Origin: a bacterium
Lineage (GTDB): Bacteria; DYJV01; JALVYZ01
Assembly: GCA_027037705.1 (NCBI GenBank)
Contig: JALVYZ010000454.1
Coordinates: 1 to 6,001, forward strand
Length of the DNA stretch: 6,001 nt
Reading direction: 5' to 3'
In this document: in pieces, positions 1,296 to 6,001 of the stretch
Numbering within the stretch: position 1 is the stretch's first letter
Layout of the letters: each line of letters opens with the position of its first letter
Program-made: the position numbers and the translations under genes
Notes under the pieces: model-generated
Seen by the model: only the letters and a program-made list of their open reading frames with translations
Databases searched by the model: none
Told to the model about the DNA's origin: nothing

Positions 1296-2867
1296 TTGAA
1301 TATAATTTTCATCAAGACACAGAAAGTATTTAGTACATTTTTATTAATATTGTCCATAACAATGATAAGTTTTTTCATTCTAAAAGTATCTTTGTTATCA
1401 GCGGAAGATATCTTTTTCAGTTCTCATTATAGTTGTTATGCTCCTGGAGAAACAATCGTTCTTGACTTCAGAGGTTTGCCAGGGAACCAAAATGATTGGA
1501 TTGGCATCTATCCTAAAGCCTCTTCCAACGATTGGAGTAATGTTCTTGAATGGTCATTTACTAATGGTTCCCAAGCACTAAATTATGCTCCTGGTCTCAC
1601 AGAGGGAAGCCTTAGTTTACCTGGCTTGTCAGAAGGCTACTATGAAGCCAGGTTATTTTATGACAATTCCTTTGAGCTACAAGCAATGGACGCGATAAGG
1701 GTGTCTTATTCCTGTGCTTCTATCCAGCCTAACAAAGATGTATATGCACCTTATGAGCCAATTGTCGTTAATTTTTTCCATTTACCTGGGAATAGCAACG
1801 ACTGGATAGGCATCTATCCTAAAGATGCCTCTAATGATTGGGGAAATGTCATTACATGGTCGTTTACTAACGGGTCACATGCTCTGAATGCTATGCCAGG
1901 TCCTGTAAATGGAAGTGTTACACTAAATGGGTTGCCAGTCGGGAGGTATGATATTCGTTTGTTCTTTAACAACAGTTTTGATCTTAGGACAGAGGCAGAA
2001 ATTAATGTGGAAGGGCATCGTATCTATGGACAATCATTGGGAAAAGCTGTATCAGTGGAGACTTATCCGGATGGAGCACTTTATTATCCTTCTGATATTT
2101 CTATAGAACATCCAACACCAGTGGTACTTTTTGTACCTGGGTGGGGATCGCAGAATGCCTCAGACTATGAAAGTTTGCTTCGTTTCATAGCAAGTCAAGG
2201 GTATACCGCTGTTTATGTAAGGGATCCAGCGCAATATAGCGCTGATACATTGATTGAACGTTTTGAAAATCTTGTTTTTCAGGATGATGTTTTGCCATAT
2301 TTGGATACTACTCGATTTGGAGTAGTAGGACATTCATCTGGTGGAGGAATGGCTTTCGCTGTATCTTATCACTTTCTCCAAAAAGGATGGGGGAGCAATG
2401 GAAAATTTGTATTTGCTATGGCTCCATGGTTTTCATTTGATATGACTGAAAATGCTTTTGGAAATTTGCCGGACAGCCTCAATGTGGTGATTTTACAATT
2501 TGGTAATGACATGACTACTGACCCAAGGATTCCACTAACTATCTACAGGCTGCTTTCAAGAGTGCCTGCAGAAAACAGAGATTATGTTGTGCTTCCAAAT
2601 GAAGGGCATTATTATCCAACTGGTAATAAACCTTTTGAACAGATTCAAGGTGTGCTCAGGCCTCTTGATGCCTTAATGGATTGGGTGTTCAACGGAAATG
2701 AGCAAGCATATAGCGTTGCTCTGGAGAATGGAAATGATGATCCTGTGGGAACTGGCATTCAAGAAATGTTACCTTCATCATCATACGAATATAAATGTTA
2801 TGCTGAGGACAATGATGCATTAGCTGGTGCTTTAAACCGTGATGGAATAGATTATTGTCATCCGTAA
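1296..2867 (+). CDS. Secreted alpha/beta hydrolase with two N-terminal Ig-like DWIGIY repeats
   Basis: This 523-residue protein starts with TTG, chosen because AGGAGG (1284-1289) lies six bases upstream and a signal peptide follows (hydrophobic residues about 12-33, likely cleavage after LLSA at 36). Two repeats follow at residues 39-137 and 143-239, in register at a 102-residue period: DWIGIYPK at 67-74 and 169-176, NDW at 78 and 180, WSFTNGS at 86 and 188, then xARLFxxNSF or xIRLFxxNSF. They resemble beta-sandwich SKICH-like modules (inference). Residues 245-468 form an alpha/beta hydrolase: oxyanion loop VPGWG (280-284), nucleophile elbow GHSSG with Ser347, acid Asp405 in QFGNDMTTDP, and His438 in NEGHYYP. 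The elbow and fold order recall dienelactone hydrolase and polyester-hydrolase relatives, where GHSMGG is usual. Cys501 and Cys521 could form a disulfide, in line with export. The substrate is unknown; an ester is likely. The gene is visibly richer in G+C than its flanks and sits between two gene remnants, which suggests transfer. No terminator is seen after it. Confidence 0.88.
   Translation: MNIIFIKTQKVFSTFLLILSITMISFFILKVSLLSAEDIFFSSHYSCYAPGETIVLDFRGLPGNQNDWIGIYPKASSNDWSNVLEWSFTNGSQALNYAPGLTEGSLSLPGLSEGYYEARLFYDNSFELQAMDAIRVSYSCASIQPNKDVYAPYEPIVVNFFHLPGNSNDWIGIYPKDASNDWGNVITWSFTNGSHALNAMPGPVNGSVTLNGLPVGRYDIRLFFNNSFDLRTEAEINVEGHRIYGQSLGKAVSVETYPDGALYYPSDISIEHPTPVVLFVPGWGSQNASDYESLLRFIASQGYTAVYVRDPAQYSADTLIERFENLVFQDDVLPYLDTTRFGVVGHSSGGGMAFAVSYHFLQKGWGSNGKFVFAMAPWFSFDMTENAFGNLPDSLNVVILQFGNDMTTDPRIPLTIYRLLSRVPAENRDYVVLPNEGHYYPTGNKPFEQIQGVLRPLDALMDWVFNGNEQAYSVALENGNDDPVGTGIQEMLPSSSYEYKCYAEDNDALAGALNRDGIDYCHP
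1410..2012 (+). repeat. Tandem coding repeat (two Ig-like modules of the hydrolase)
   Basis: The two halves (about 1410-1706 and 1722-2012) encode the paralogous modules described in the hydrolase entry. Similarity is also visible in the DNA, for example GGCATCTATCCTAAAG in both copies at a 306-base offset. Synonymous differences are common, so the duplication is old rather than recent. Confidence 0.8.
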
Positions 2868-2910
2868 AAAAGTAATTAGGTGTAATTCTGATAAATCTAA
2901 ACTAATAGTT

Positions 2911-3553
2911 AGTCCATATGATCAAGGGTATTGTGAAATAAAGGATATAAAATAAATCTTAAAAAGGTTTATATAATCTATAAAGAGCTTAATTTGCAAA
3001 AGGTTAAATTTAAAAAGCATAAAAAGATTGTTGTTTCTTCCTTCCTATAATTTTCTTATAGAAGCAAAACATTCTAATCATGTATGGAGTATAGATTTTG
3101 CATTTGATGAAATTGAAAATGGAAAAAAGATAAAAATAATGCCAATATGTGATGTTTTCAGCAGATTCTGTATTGGAATTAAAATTGATAATTCTATTTG
3201 TGCTAATTCTATAATTGAAATTCTTGAAAGCTATTTCTTTAAATATGACAAACCAGAAATAATAAGAACAGATAATGGACCAGAATTCAGAAGTAGAAAA
3301 TTTAGAATGTTTCTTGAGAGAAATAGAATAAAGCAAGAATTTATACCAAAAGGGAGTCCATGGGAAAATGGAAATATTGAGAGTTTCATAGGCAAATTGA
3401 GGGAAAAATGTCTTAATATGCATGAATTTAGTAGCATCAATGAAGCAAGGGAAATTATAGAAAATTACAGTAAATTTTATAAAAACCAAGGGCCTTATAG
3501 TTCTCTTGGAGGAAAATTCCCCTTATGAATGTTACATTGTTAATAAAAGATAA
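2911..3553 (+). mobile_element. Decayed IS3-family insertion sequence, 5' truncated
   Basis: Only the OrfB part of an IS3-type element can be followed. Nothing resembling OrfA is present between the hydrolase stop (2867) and here. The earliest hint is a degenerate stretch reading SPYDQGYCEIKD at 2911-2946, similar to the PYYGYRRIxxIL region before the catalytic domain in this family. I could not find terminal inverted repeats or a target-site duplication, so the outer borders are not defined. Confidence 0.7.
2943..3553 (+). pseudogene. IS3-family transposase OrfB, frameshifted twice
   Basis: The element's DDE transposase (rve integrase fold) would cut and join DNA strands. Three frames must be joined. 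Positions 2943-3029 read GYKINLKKVYIIYKELNL, the helical region before the core. The core runs from about 3028 to 3522, with Asp in HVWSIDFAFD (residue 23 counting from TTG 3028), Asp82 in RTDNGPEF and Glu118 in NGNIES; 35 residues separate the last two, the classic DD(35)E spacing. The tail after SSLGGKFP continues one base later as PYECYIVNKR to TAA 3551-3553. The first shift lies at about 3027-3048. The second is best explained by an extra C in CCCC (3519-3522), which creates the premature TGA at 3526-3528. Both shifts are +1, not the -1 shift IS3 elements use between OrfA and OrfB, so they mark decay. The catalytic residues survive, but a functional protein is unlikely. Confidence 0.85.
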
Positions 3554-3573
3554 ATTTAACTTTAACATTTTAA

Positions 3574-3602
3574 TTGACATTTTTAATATTCGTATTTATA
3601 AC
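3574..3602 (+). promoter_or_regulatory. Near-consensus sigma-70 promoter without an evident gene
   Basis: TTGACA (3574-3579, perfect) and TATAAC (3597-3602, five of six) are separated by 17 bases. Transcription would start near 3609. The next plus-strand gene is about 365 bases further on and has its own promoter. A transcript from here would run antisense through the minus-strand mini-ORF at 3604-3681. Confidence 0.6.
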
Positions 3603-3603
3603 T

Positions 3604-3681
3604 TTACAAATTTTGGGAGCATATCACTTTTATATTTGCATAATTGTTATTTTCTATATTAGCATTAATAGTTTTTTTCAT
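3604..3681 (-). CDS. Possible 25-residue mini-ORF or 5' gene remnant with strong Shine-Dalgarno site
   Basis: On the minus strand, GGAGGT (3694 down to 3689) lies seven bases before ATG at 3681, the best ribosome site in this intergenic region. The frame begins MKKTINANIENNNYANIKV and stops at TAA (3606-3604) after 25 codons. The peptide is polar and Asn/Lys-rich with one Cys; it has no membrane segment or signal peptide. I do not recognise it. It may be the surviving 5' end of a gene whose remainder was lost, or a leader or small peptide. A minus-strand -10-like TATTAT lies upstream, but I see no good -35 box. An intergenic accident is the alternative. Confidence 0.3.
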   Translation of the reverse strand: MKKTINANIENNNYANIKVICSQNL

Positions 3682-3864
3682 TGACCTTACCTCCAATAGT
3701 ATTAATTTAAATAATATAAAAGAGATAAAATTCGTATTTTTAATTTTACATTTTTGGAATGAAATATGAGAGTCAAGAAAACTTCAATATTCATAATCCT
3801 TGATGGATATCTTTGGATAGAATATAAAAAATTAACGAAAAATACAAAAAAGTGAAAAAGAAAA

Positions 3865-3893
3865 TTGACATTAATTTTTTTTTAAAATATGAT
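3865..3893 (+). promoter_or_regulatory. Sigma-70 promoter of the TolC-like gene
   Basis: TTGACA (3865-3870, perfect) and TATGAT (3888-3893, five of six) have a 17-base spacer. The predicted start near 3900 leaves a leader of about 70 bases before ATG 3973. The leader contains no obvious hairpin, and the Shine-Dalgarno match before the ATG is poor. Confidence 0.7.
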
Positions 3894-3972
3894 TATTTTT
3901 GATTTAAACTGAATAATTCGGAATATTAATGACTTTTATGAAAAAAATTTAATTTTTAGTAATGGTTAAAAT

Positions 3973-5895
3973 ATGAATATTTGTAATAAGTTTATATTGT
4001 TTTGTTTGTTGGCATTTTTTCTATTTTTCTATCCAATGCAATTATTCTGTAAATATAACTCTAATTTGAATAATAGAAAATCTGAAGTGGATATAAAAAT
4101 AAAGATTGAAGAATATAAGATTGAAAAGGCTTTGAGCTTTTTCGATAGGCTTATGGCAGAGCCTTTACAGTTGTCAGCAAGGAAAGATTTGATGTTTAAT
4201 ATAAAACAAATATGTTCGATCAATGATACTGAGGAGTTAGAAAAGCTTATTGAGACTAAAAAAATAGCATTGAGAAACGATATAGGTATTAAGCTTAGAG
4301 CGGGTATTAGACGGTCAACGGGAAATTTAAATTTATATAACAACTCTGCCTATGGAGGAGTGAGCTGGAATATTATCAAAGGTGGTTTTCTTGAAAATAG
4401 GCTAAAATTGAACGAACTCTCCATTGAACAGTCGATTGCGTCTAAAAAAAATAATCTTTATAAAAGAAAATTGCTTTCTTTGTGTCGGCAGAACTTTGTT
4501 AGTTATTATTTTGCTAAGCTTAAAATTCCTATATTGAAAAATAAGCTCAAGATACTGAAAAGACTGATGAAGGTAAAAAGACAAGGGTACTTTTATGGAA
4601 TAGAGCTTGCTGATTCCCTTATTAAGATAGAAAGAGAGATTGAAAAAACCAAGGCCGAGTTGAGGCAATATAAACAGCTTATTTACACCTACTGCACCAT
4701 TGAGAAAATGAATTTTTGTAAATACAGTGGGGATGCACTTCCGCCACTACTTTCCGTTAGATTTCAAAGGGTTATGAAAGAGTTAAAGAAAAATGAAGCT
4801 ATAGGAGAGGAAGAGAGTTTGAATAAGGGTGAAAAACTTTTAGCTCTCAAACATAACTGGAAGCACAATGTTAAGTTAGAAGCCTATCTCTATTACAACA
4901 CAAAAGGGGATAGCTCCTTCTTTTCTAAACAGGGTTTTGTTGCAGGAGTTAACCTCTCTATGCCTTTAGGTAAGAGCTATTATAAAGATGCCGATAGGCT
5001 AAAATTGCTGCAGGAGCGAGATAATCTGAAAAGGGAGGGTAGCTATCTTGAAAATTATGCCAATCTTTTGTTTAGAGAGGAAGAGGAGAAGGTGAGCGAT
5101 GCAGTAAATAATTGGTATGGAATAGATATTGCTTTTGAGAGAATAAGGAGAGAAAGCTATAAACTAAAGGGGGAAATGAAAAGCGGGAGCGTTTTTTATA
5201 GGGATTATGTGGCTCTCCTTGAAAACTTGAAAAACTATCTGGACAGTGAACTTGAATTTGTTTCGAGCGAAGGTTTGCTTTACAGAAGGATTGTAAATCT
5301 TTTGACTATTACCGGTGTAAAGTGGAAAGATAAATTATATGAAGTAAGATTGGCTCCATTAGGCAACCGTTTCAGGGTAGGGAGGAGATATGTAATTTTA
5401 AAAAAAAGTGAGGTTGAGCTTCTATCACCAGATTTTATTACAGAGTTTCTTTATACCAAAGGGATCCGGGCCGTTATAATGGGAAAAAACCTGTTTGACT
5501 CCAAAAAAGGGAAGGACTTAGCTAAGGCGTTGAGTAATATGGGGATAAGGAGCTATGTTCTGGATTCGGGGAGAAGAAAGGGTGAAGATATACCAATATG
5601 TTTGAATGTTAACGATTTTAGTGGAGTTGTGGGCAGTTGGCAGTGTGTGATTTTTAAGGGAAAGATAGATAAAACTGGCTTAAAGGAACTGTTGAAAAGA
5701 GCCGATATACTATTTGTACCGCAGCAGGATGCGTTTTTTCATTCTGAAAAGTTGGGTGTTGTAGTAAACTTAAAACATACAACCTCGGAGCTTCAGCTTG
5801 AAAACAGACTCGATGAGCTTTATCGGTCTGGAATTAAAAACTTTCTTTTCGATTTTGGCAAGTTGATGGATGTGTACAGTGGAGGGTCTAATTGA
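3973..5895 (+). CDS. TolC-like outer-membrane export protein with a long C-terminal extension
   Basis: The 640-residue product begins with a signal sequence (hydrophobic about 8-25; FCK at 25-27 is not a good lipobox). The start is ATG 3973: an ATG at 3962 hits a stop at once, and one at 4036 would remove the signal. Residues about 35-455 show the two-fold layout of TolC-family channels. A beta-strand pair (IGIKLRAGIRR, then YGGVSWNIIKGG, 104-138) leads into long charged helices (140-240). A second pair (VKLEAYLYYNT, then FVAGVNLSMPLG, 300-333) leads into helices at 337-440. WNIIKGGFLENRLK corresponds to the WxLFDGG...R turn of the family. Residues about 456-640 are extra: alternating strands and helices (RAVIMG, GIRSYVLD, ADILFVP, IKNFLFDFG) that suggest a Rossmann-like domain of unknown role. 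Usual TolC proteins are about 420-490 residues. The role is probably export of a small molecule, protein or polysaccharide with the coupled downstream gene. The cargo cannot be read from the sequence. Low sequence conservation leaves the family call moderate. Confidence 0.68.
   Translation: MNICNKFILFCLLAFFLFFYPMQLFCKYNSNLNNRKSEVDIKIKIEEYKIEKALSFFDRLMAEPLQLSARKDLMFNIKQICSINDTEELEKLIETKKIALRNDIGIKLRAGIRRSTGNLNLYNNSAYGGVSWNIIKGGFLENRLKLNELSIEQSIASKKNNLYKRKLLSLCRQNFVSYYFAKLKIPILKNKLKILKRLMKVKRQGYFYGIELADSLIKIEREIEKTKAELRQYKQLIYTYCTIEKMNFCKYSGDALPPLLSVRFQRVMKELKKNEAIGEEESLNKGEKLLALKHNWKHNVKLEAYLYYNTKGDSSFFSKQGFVAGVNLSMPLGKSYYKDADRLKLLQERDNLKREGSYLENYANLLFREEEEKVSDAVNNWYGIDIAFERIRRESYKLKGEMKSGSVFYRDYVALLENLKNYLDSELEFVSSEGLLYRRIVNLLTITGVKWKDKLYEVRLAPLGNRFRVGRRYVILKKSEVELLSPDFITEFLYTKGIRAVIMGKNLFDSKKGKDLAKALSNMGIRSYVLDSGRRKGEDIPICLNVNDFSGVVGSWQCVIFKGKIDKTGLKELLKRADILFVPQQDAFFHSEKLGVVVNLKHTTSELQLENRLDELYRSGIKNFLFDFGKLMDVYSGGSN
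5881..5886 (+). promoter_or_regulatory. Ribosome binding site for the overlapping downstream gene
   Basis: GGAGGG, inside the 3' end of the TolC-like gene, lies five bases before TTG 5892. The TAA at 5889-5891 in the same frame rules out any earlier start, so TTG is the first possible codon. Confidence 0.75.
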
Positions 5896-6001
5896 GGCTT
5901 CACAGCAGAAAAACAGTAATAAACTATGTCCCTGAAGGGAGTCCACCAAAGGCTGAGAGAACGAGGATAAACATTGCTCTTTATCTCTACATAACCGCAC
6001 T
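5892..6001 (+). CDS. Start of a coupled downstream gene, possibly an inner-membrane or adaptor component (partial)
   Basis: Thirty-six codons are visible before the window ends. The TTG start overlaps the preceding stop (TTGA at 5892-5895), the arrangement typical of translational coupling, so the two genes form one operon. The sequence begins MRLHSRKTVINYVPEGSPPK, a basic, Pro-containing segment that would face the cytoplasm. It goes on through AERTRINIALYLYITA, where a transmembrane helix appears to begin. A short cytoplasmic N-terminus followed by one helix is the layout of HlyD/Alg44-type membrane fusion proteins, the natural partner of a TolC-like channel. That is inference from context; the diagnostic parts lie outside the window. 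Reading frame and start are well supported, the function is not. Confidence 0.72.
   Translation, partial: MRLHSRKTVINYVPEGSPPKAERTRINIALYLYITA

Follow-up and report, generated by a model that had tools for sequence, protein, structure and literature searches.

The locus examined here raises the question of why a TolC-like protein continues well past its last long helix, and what this extension might do. The window, a stretch of 6,001 nucleotides that is the whole of contig C454 from a 2.05 Mb genome, encodes a 640-residue protein in which an earlier note, made from the sequence alone, had recognized a TolC-like channel with an unexplained C-terminal alpha/beta domain. The open reading frame and the segments quoted in that note (RRYVIL, RAVIMG, RSYVLD, ADILFVP and IKNFLFDFG) are all present. 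The features of the gene and its downstream neighbour are as follows.

3973..5895, + strand: TolC/OEP protein with a C-terminal domain assigned as a degenerate glycosidase-like barrel (open reading frame of 640 residues; Pfam OEP; orthologue)
3973..4050, + strand: predicted signal segment, residues 1–26 (hydropathy)
4051..5340, + strand: OEP/TolC core, residues 27–456 (Pfam, hydropathy and multiple alignment with TolC relatives)
Within the core, + strand: strand-pair segments at residues ~103–134 and 298–332, each followed by long helices (same basis as the core)
5341..5892, + strand: putative degenerate GH18-like barrel, residues 457–640 (alignment to intact fusions, hhalign and shuffle tests)
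5563..5640, + strand: candidate former active-site region, residues 531–556 (alignments and conservation scan)
5593–5616, + strand: PICLNVND, in which ICLNVN replaces the LDxE of the relatives (alignments)
5881..5886, + strand: GGAGGG, probable ribosome-binding site of the adaptor gene (sequence inspection)
5892..6001, + strand: HlyD-family adaptor gene, first 36 codons, then the contig end (translation; full-length orthologue in locus L076)

Other genes on the contig lie upstream of this operon, all on the + strand. The contig start cuts a prismane/CO-dehydrogenase-family protein, leaving its C-terminal part (3–470; PF03063, E = 5e-28). A secreted alpha/beta hydrolase, kin of PET-hydrolase-like proteins, follows at 1296–2867 (PF12740, E = 2e-7) and is preceded by two similar repeats, one of them with a weak SKICH match. 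A truncated IS3-type transposase (rve core, N terminus missing) occupies 3028–3528 (NCBIfam transpos_IS3, E = 2e-41).

The channel core and its C-terminal tail

The assignment of the protein to the TolC family was borne out by Pfam, which returned an OEP (PF02321) match in two stretches at 35.1 bits, over the cut-off of 22 (E = 1.5e-8), and by hydropathy, which placed a hydrophobic signal segment at the N terminus. Visual comparison puts the two halves of the core in register, with a hairpin-like strand pair and then a long helix in each; the self-alignment score does not rise above that of shuffled sequences and is not significant taken alone. An HlyD_3 adaptor protein is encoded directly downstream of the TolC gene in the L076 locus described below and in the fusion relatives. 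Residues ~1–455 are confidently predicted to adopt the TolC/OEP fold. In G001, the only same-order genome searched, the 640-residue protein had no match, and the OEP protein of that genome that was inspected (L012, 493 residues) is an ordinary TolC without an extension.

Residues 457–640 (~184 residues) lie past the OEP repeat and the last long helix, on the periplasmic side, where TolC C-termini lie, as the note had placed them. This tail is conserved in the L076 orthologue (68% identity, dN/dS of 0.19), and it is therefore a genuine extra domain and not chance read-through. The alternating beta and alpha segments read from the sequence reappeared in both single-sequence AlphaFold2 models, although the mean pLDDT values of 42.6 and 39.4 are too low to prove a fold. 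Structural searches with these low-confidence models gave a TIM-barrel-rich list in Foldseek and a mixture of common beta-alpha-beta folds in VIA, which serve as leads only. When used alone, the tail retrieved nothing usable from Pfam, NCBIfam, PHROGs or PDB sequences. The checks pointed neither to a normal channel barrel, nor to disorder, nor to a first part other than TolC, the three outcomes that the note had set against its own proposal.

Relatives of the channel protein and the ancestry of the tail

Single-protein homologue scans of the genome and viral collections and a plasmid tblastn search were empty. A tblastn-style search of 386 genomes gave matches of which the best-looking proved on checking to be noise (FtsK-like, MutS-neighbour, ABC and xanthine-dehydrogenase-like open reading frames). 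The probe that succeeded consisted of the real sequence aligned with artificial, randomly varied rows, which yielded degenerate search patterns; the artificial rows only widened these patterns and are not evidence themselves. Three loci were retrieved: L076 (MAG Desulfurellaceae bacterium S013_74), which encodes an orthologue with 76% identity over residues 1–640, and L077 (uncultured Crocinitomix MAG) and L078 (MAG bacterium FK4.bin61), which encode TolC relatives with 24% (E = 5e-9) and 26% (E = 4e-8) identity, respectively. Close to the 5′ end of the L076 TolC gene the reading frame changes, either genuinely or through an assembly error.

The search for homologues with the same two-domain layout uncovered TolC–barrel fusions in at least eight other lineages. 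An intact barrel of ~230 residues, homologous to a secreted protein of the operon, follows the TolC-like part of the protein in L077, L078, G100, G159, G259, G113, G235 and G064. Pfam confirms OEP in G159, G259, G113, G235 and G064; the TolC parts of L077 and L078 are below the reach of Pfam and match the window TolC by tblastn, and the N-terminal part of the G100 protein has no Pfam match. A profile of the intact barrels matched PDB entry 10yv (E = 1.5e-8), the GH18 chitinase 5xwf (E = 2e-4) and then chitotriosidases. LDxE is invariant in ten intact members from the operons and in a plasmid homologue from Bacillus badius, and the only invariant residues in these 11 sequences are W14, L97, D98, E100, M162 and Y164 (L078 domain numbering). 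The intact relatives thus resemble GH18 chitinases and 10yv in profile and in having LDxE at the fourth-strand position; because they do not keep the full DxxDxDxE motif of GH18, we describe them as GH18-like with LDxE and not as formal GH18 members.

Two database names deserve mention here. The B. badius plasmid protein (WP_120036611.1; L112:4890-5792), which counts among the GH18-like barrels (10yv, E = 8e-10), is annotated as an 'amidase', yet Pfam shows no amidase domain in it. Entry 10yv itself, from Cellulomonas fimi, was deposited as 'Putative GH97', a name that looks doubtful beside its profile kinship to the GH18-like family.

In a full-length alignment, residues 457–640 fall exactly at the position that the intact barrel occupies in the TolC relatives. 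The window barrel is ~45–55 residues shorter than the intact form, and the missing segments follow strand 3 and strand 4. Comparison of the tail with the intact barrel by hhalign gave E = 7e-4 over 154 columns. The N-terminal part of the tail scored 27.3 against the barrel profile, compared with 13.1 ± 2.0 for column shuffles (0 of 200 as high), and the C-terminal part scored 26.3, compared with 11.4 ± 2.1 (0 of 150 as high). Likewise, a barrel HMM scored 9.9 bits on the tail, and the best of 2,000 shuffles reached 6.7. Extending the profile with remote members weakened the match (58 columns, E = 0.01), and with a 10-member profile one of 150 shuffles scored as high as the C-terminal half. The sequence similarity between tail and barrel is weak, yet it exceeds all shuffles against the nearer profiles.

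These comparisons bear on whether an unrelated alpha/beta domain, of Rossmann or GT-B-like type, has replaced the barrel. A weak Pfam match to Glycos_transf_1 (E = 0.046, residues 109–148 of the fragment) and the mixed beta-alpha-beta folds that VIA ranks highest for the poor model fit such a replacement. However, both halves of the tail match the barrel profile in the correct order, at z ~7 over shuffles, and the tail sits where the barrel sits in orthologous TolC proteins, so that we regard replacement as improbable. Descent of the tail from a GH18-like barrel is, by contrast, strongly favoured by the sequence comparisons. Of the fold proposed in the earlier note, the alpha/beta module stands and the Rossmann type does not, as a shortened GH18-like (beta/alpha)-barrel explains the tail best. 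Among intact relatives, the window tail comes closest by local score to the secreted protein of the window genome (z of 4.3). A lineage-specific duplication would suit this finding without being proved by it, and the finding does not extend to the L076 tail.

Motif loss and selection on the tail

At the position of LDxE, the window protein has PICLNVND and the L076 orthologue has PLCLSAKS, where the intact form reads HLDIEPH. The acid pair is absent from these two window-type proteins in either alignment register. Thus, the window domain, which lacks even the LDxE that its intact relatives retain of the GH18 motif, is a homologue of the GH18-like family and not one of its enzymes. An unguided scan identified residues 531–556, the former active site, as the least conserved 26-residue stretch of the tail, with 8 of 26 positions identical between the orthologues (31%; 34 of 20,000 shuffles were as low). 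Intact secreted copies show the reverse, being 77% conserved around the motif and 60% overall.

Comparison of the window with L076 gives a dN/dS of 0.05 for the TolC core and 0.19 for the tail. In the tail, the flanks of the former active site have values of 0.12 and 0.15, with 70–77% identity between orthologues, and residues 531–556 have a value of 0.54, a contrast that counts as supporting evidence only, because dS approaches saturation and just 26 codons are involved. These values indicate that the tail fold is under purifying selection.

Could the fused barrel still be active through other residues, as a working channel–hydrolase fusion? The purifying selection on the fold fits this idea, as does the near invariance of ADILFVPQQ and IKNFLFDFGKL between the two orthologues. 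However, the motif that is invariant in intact members is missing from both window-type proteins in either register, conservation within the tail is lowest around the former active site, and each of the two genomes has a separate intact copy. An active fusion is therefore unlikely, and the tail is, in all likelihood, now non-catalytic. A second possibility is that it is a functionless, decaying leftover, its task having been taken over by the secreted copy; the shortening, the lost motif and the weak similarity could be read in this way. The constraint on the flanks speaks against decay, as do the intact frame and the overlap of the stop codon with the next start in both genomes (in the window, a TTG start of the adaptor gene). 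Decay thus has a low probability, and we consider it somewhat more probable that the non-catalytic tail has a guiding or scaffold role than that it has none.

Operon partners and a model for polysaccharide export

In L076, the gene order is TolC, the HlyD-family adaptor (L076:5371-6540; HlyD_3, E = 1.6e-10), a TackOD1 + GGDEF-like protein, a GT2 glycosyltransferase and a secreted barrel protein of 247 residues that contains HLDIEPH. On contig C482 of the window genome, a TackOD1–GGDEF protein, a GT2 and a secreted intact paralogue carrying VHLDLEPH, encoded after the GT2, follow one another as in L076. This shared order suggests that the operon is most likely divided between the two contigs, C454 and C482, and that the bulk of the adaptor gene has most likely been lost from the assembly at the gap. 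The four-part set of TolC fusion, HlyD adaptor, TackOD1–GGDEF protein and GT2 recurs in varied order in L077, L078, G159, G259, G113, G235 and G064. TackOD1 and GT2 precede the TolC–barrel fusion and then HlyD in G113 (L125), G235 (L126) and G064 (L128), an arrangement in which gene order is rearranged and content kept. In G014 and G263, the HlyD, TackOD1 and GT2 genes are present and a TolC fusion is not nearby. G014 also encodes a UDP-glucose/GDP-mannose dehydrogenase alongside its TackOD1/GT2/HlyD genes (L127:5765-7081 and 2362-5758), which suggests that its set is a uronate polymer variant.

The GT2 proteins bear the processive-type signature of QxxRW and DxD in nine of nine operons (QxxRW kept in 9/9), and that of L076 is nearest to PgaC/IcaA. 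The regulators match TackOD1 (PF18551) at E ~1e-54, contain 5–6 CxxC matches per protein and keep RxxD in all ten cases and the GGDEF signature in none. On the basis of these motifs, the TackOD1–degenerate GGDEF protein is probably a c-di-GMP receptor. The usual tasks of TolC and HlyD proteins are type I secretion and efflux, which would be consistent with export of proteins or small molecules by this tripartite set. However, no ABC or RND transporter was recognized in any of these operons, and a GT2 of processive type, bearing QxxRW, is a constant partner, as is a glycosidase-like barrel. Export of proteins or small molecules is accordingly very improbable, and the cargo is highly likely to be a polysaccharide, on which the tail plausibly acts.

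HlyD-type adaptors link to the inner membrane, and GT2 synthases push polymer into the periplasm, where several exopolysaccharide systems require a hydrolase or lyase; with the C terminus of TolC in the periplasm, an intact fusion would therefore position an enzyme for chain trimming at the mouth of the channel. We consider it likely that the operon specifies a synthase-dependent polysaccharide exporter in which a channel-tethered glycosidase became a non-catalytic guiding or scaffold domain, with the secreted paralogue as the catalytic form. In this model, which combines elements supported by the sequences (the operon, the TolC identity, the tail homology, the motif loss and the purifying selection) with a putative hydrolase activity of the relatives, the GT2 synthase would make the polymer, the HlyD-type adaptor would bridge the periplasm and the TolC-type channel would provide the exit through the outer membrane. 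The cytoplasmic TackOD1 + degenerate-GGDEF protein would probably be a c-di-GMP receptor that gates synthesis. Across the family as a whole, the GH18-like barrel on the periplasmic C terminus would shorten polymer, or clear it, at the channel entry. In the window lineage, the barrel would have been shortened and have lost its LDxE acids while selection retained the fold, so that the tail would now most likely be a polymer-guiding, docking or assembly domain, and cutting would be left to the secreted intact paralogue. The broader proposal, a lineage-spanning class in which the channel carries its own GH18-like glycosidase and the window form is a polymer-guiding pseudo-glycosidase that has passed catalysis to a secreted duplicate, seems to us about evenly balanced.

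In the synthase-dependent Pel, PNAG, alginate and cellulose systems, c-di-GMP controls the synthase, a hydrolase or lyase modifies the polymer in the periplasm, and the outer membrane has an exit of its own for it. The window system has a synthase, a putative polymer-modifying enzyme and an outer-membrane exit in common with them, c-di-GMP control would be a further likeness, and its degenerate GGDEF domain with RxxD is reminiscent of PelD. However, its exit is a TolC-type channel with an HlyD adaptor in place of a beta-barrel porin with a TPR scaffold, and the putative enzyme is fused to the channel.

No description of a TolC fused to a glycosidase was found in the literature searched, an absence that is no proof of novelty. 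Closest among published arrangements is the cellulose system XcsA/XcsB/TolC of cyanobacteria, which includes the endoglucanase XcsC and is a proposed tripartite polysaccharide exporter; its model is stated to lack experimental validation (PMC12430437). Both systems contain a GT2 synthase, an HlyD-like adaptor, a TolC-like channel and a hydrolase; in Xcs, TolC lies outside the operon, the endoglucanase is separate and the regulator is PilZ (PMC12430437), whereas in the window family the channel protein itself includes the GH18-like barrel, and TackOD1 + degenerate GGDEF takes the place of PilZ. TolC is usually viewed as a passive exit duct; here, a polymer-processing enzyme would be built into it in several unrelated lineages, at the point where the polymer chain would enter. 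The one lineage with a non-enzymatic form and an intact secreted copy would offer a natural experiment on the role of the hydrolase in polysaccharide export, by which cutting, guiding and assembly could be distinguished.

TackOD1 (PF18551) was described from archaeal response regulators as a zinc-ribbon-rich domain of obscure function, with mention only of 'some bacteria' (PMC5847659). Unlike in those response regulators (PMC5847659), the domain is here joined to a degenerate GGDEF within a probable polysaccharide operon, which gives this poorly understood domain a bacterial functional context.
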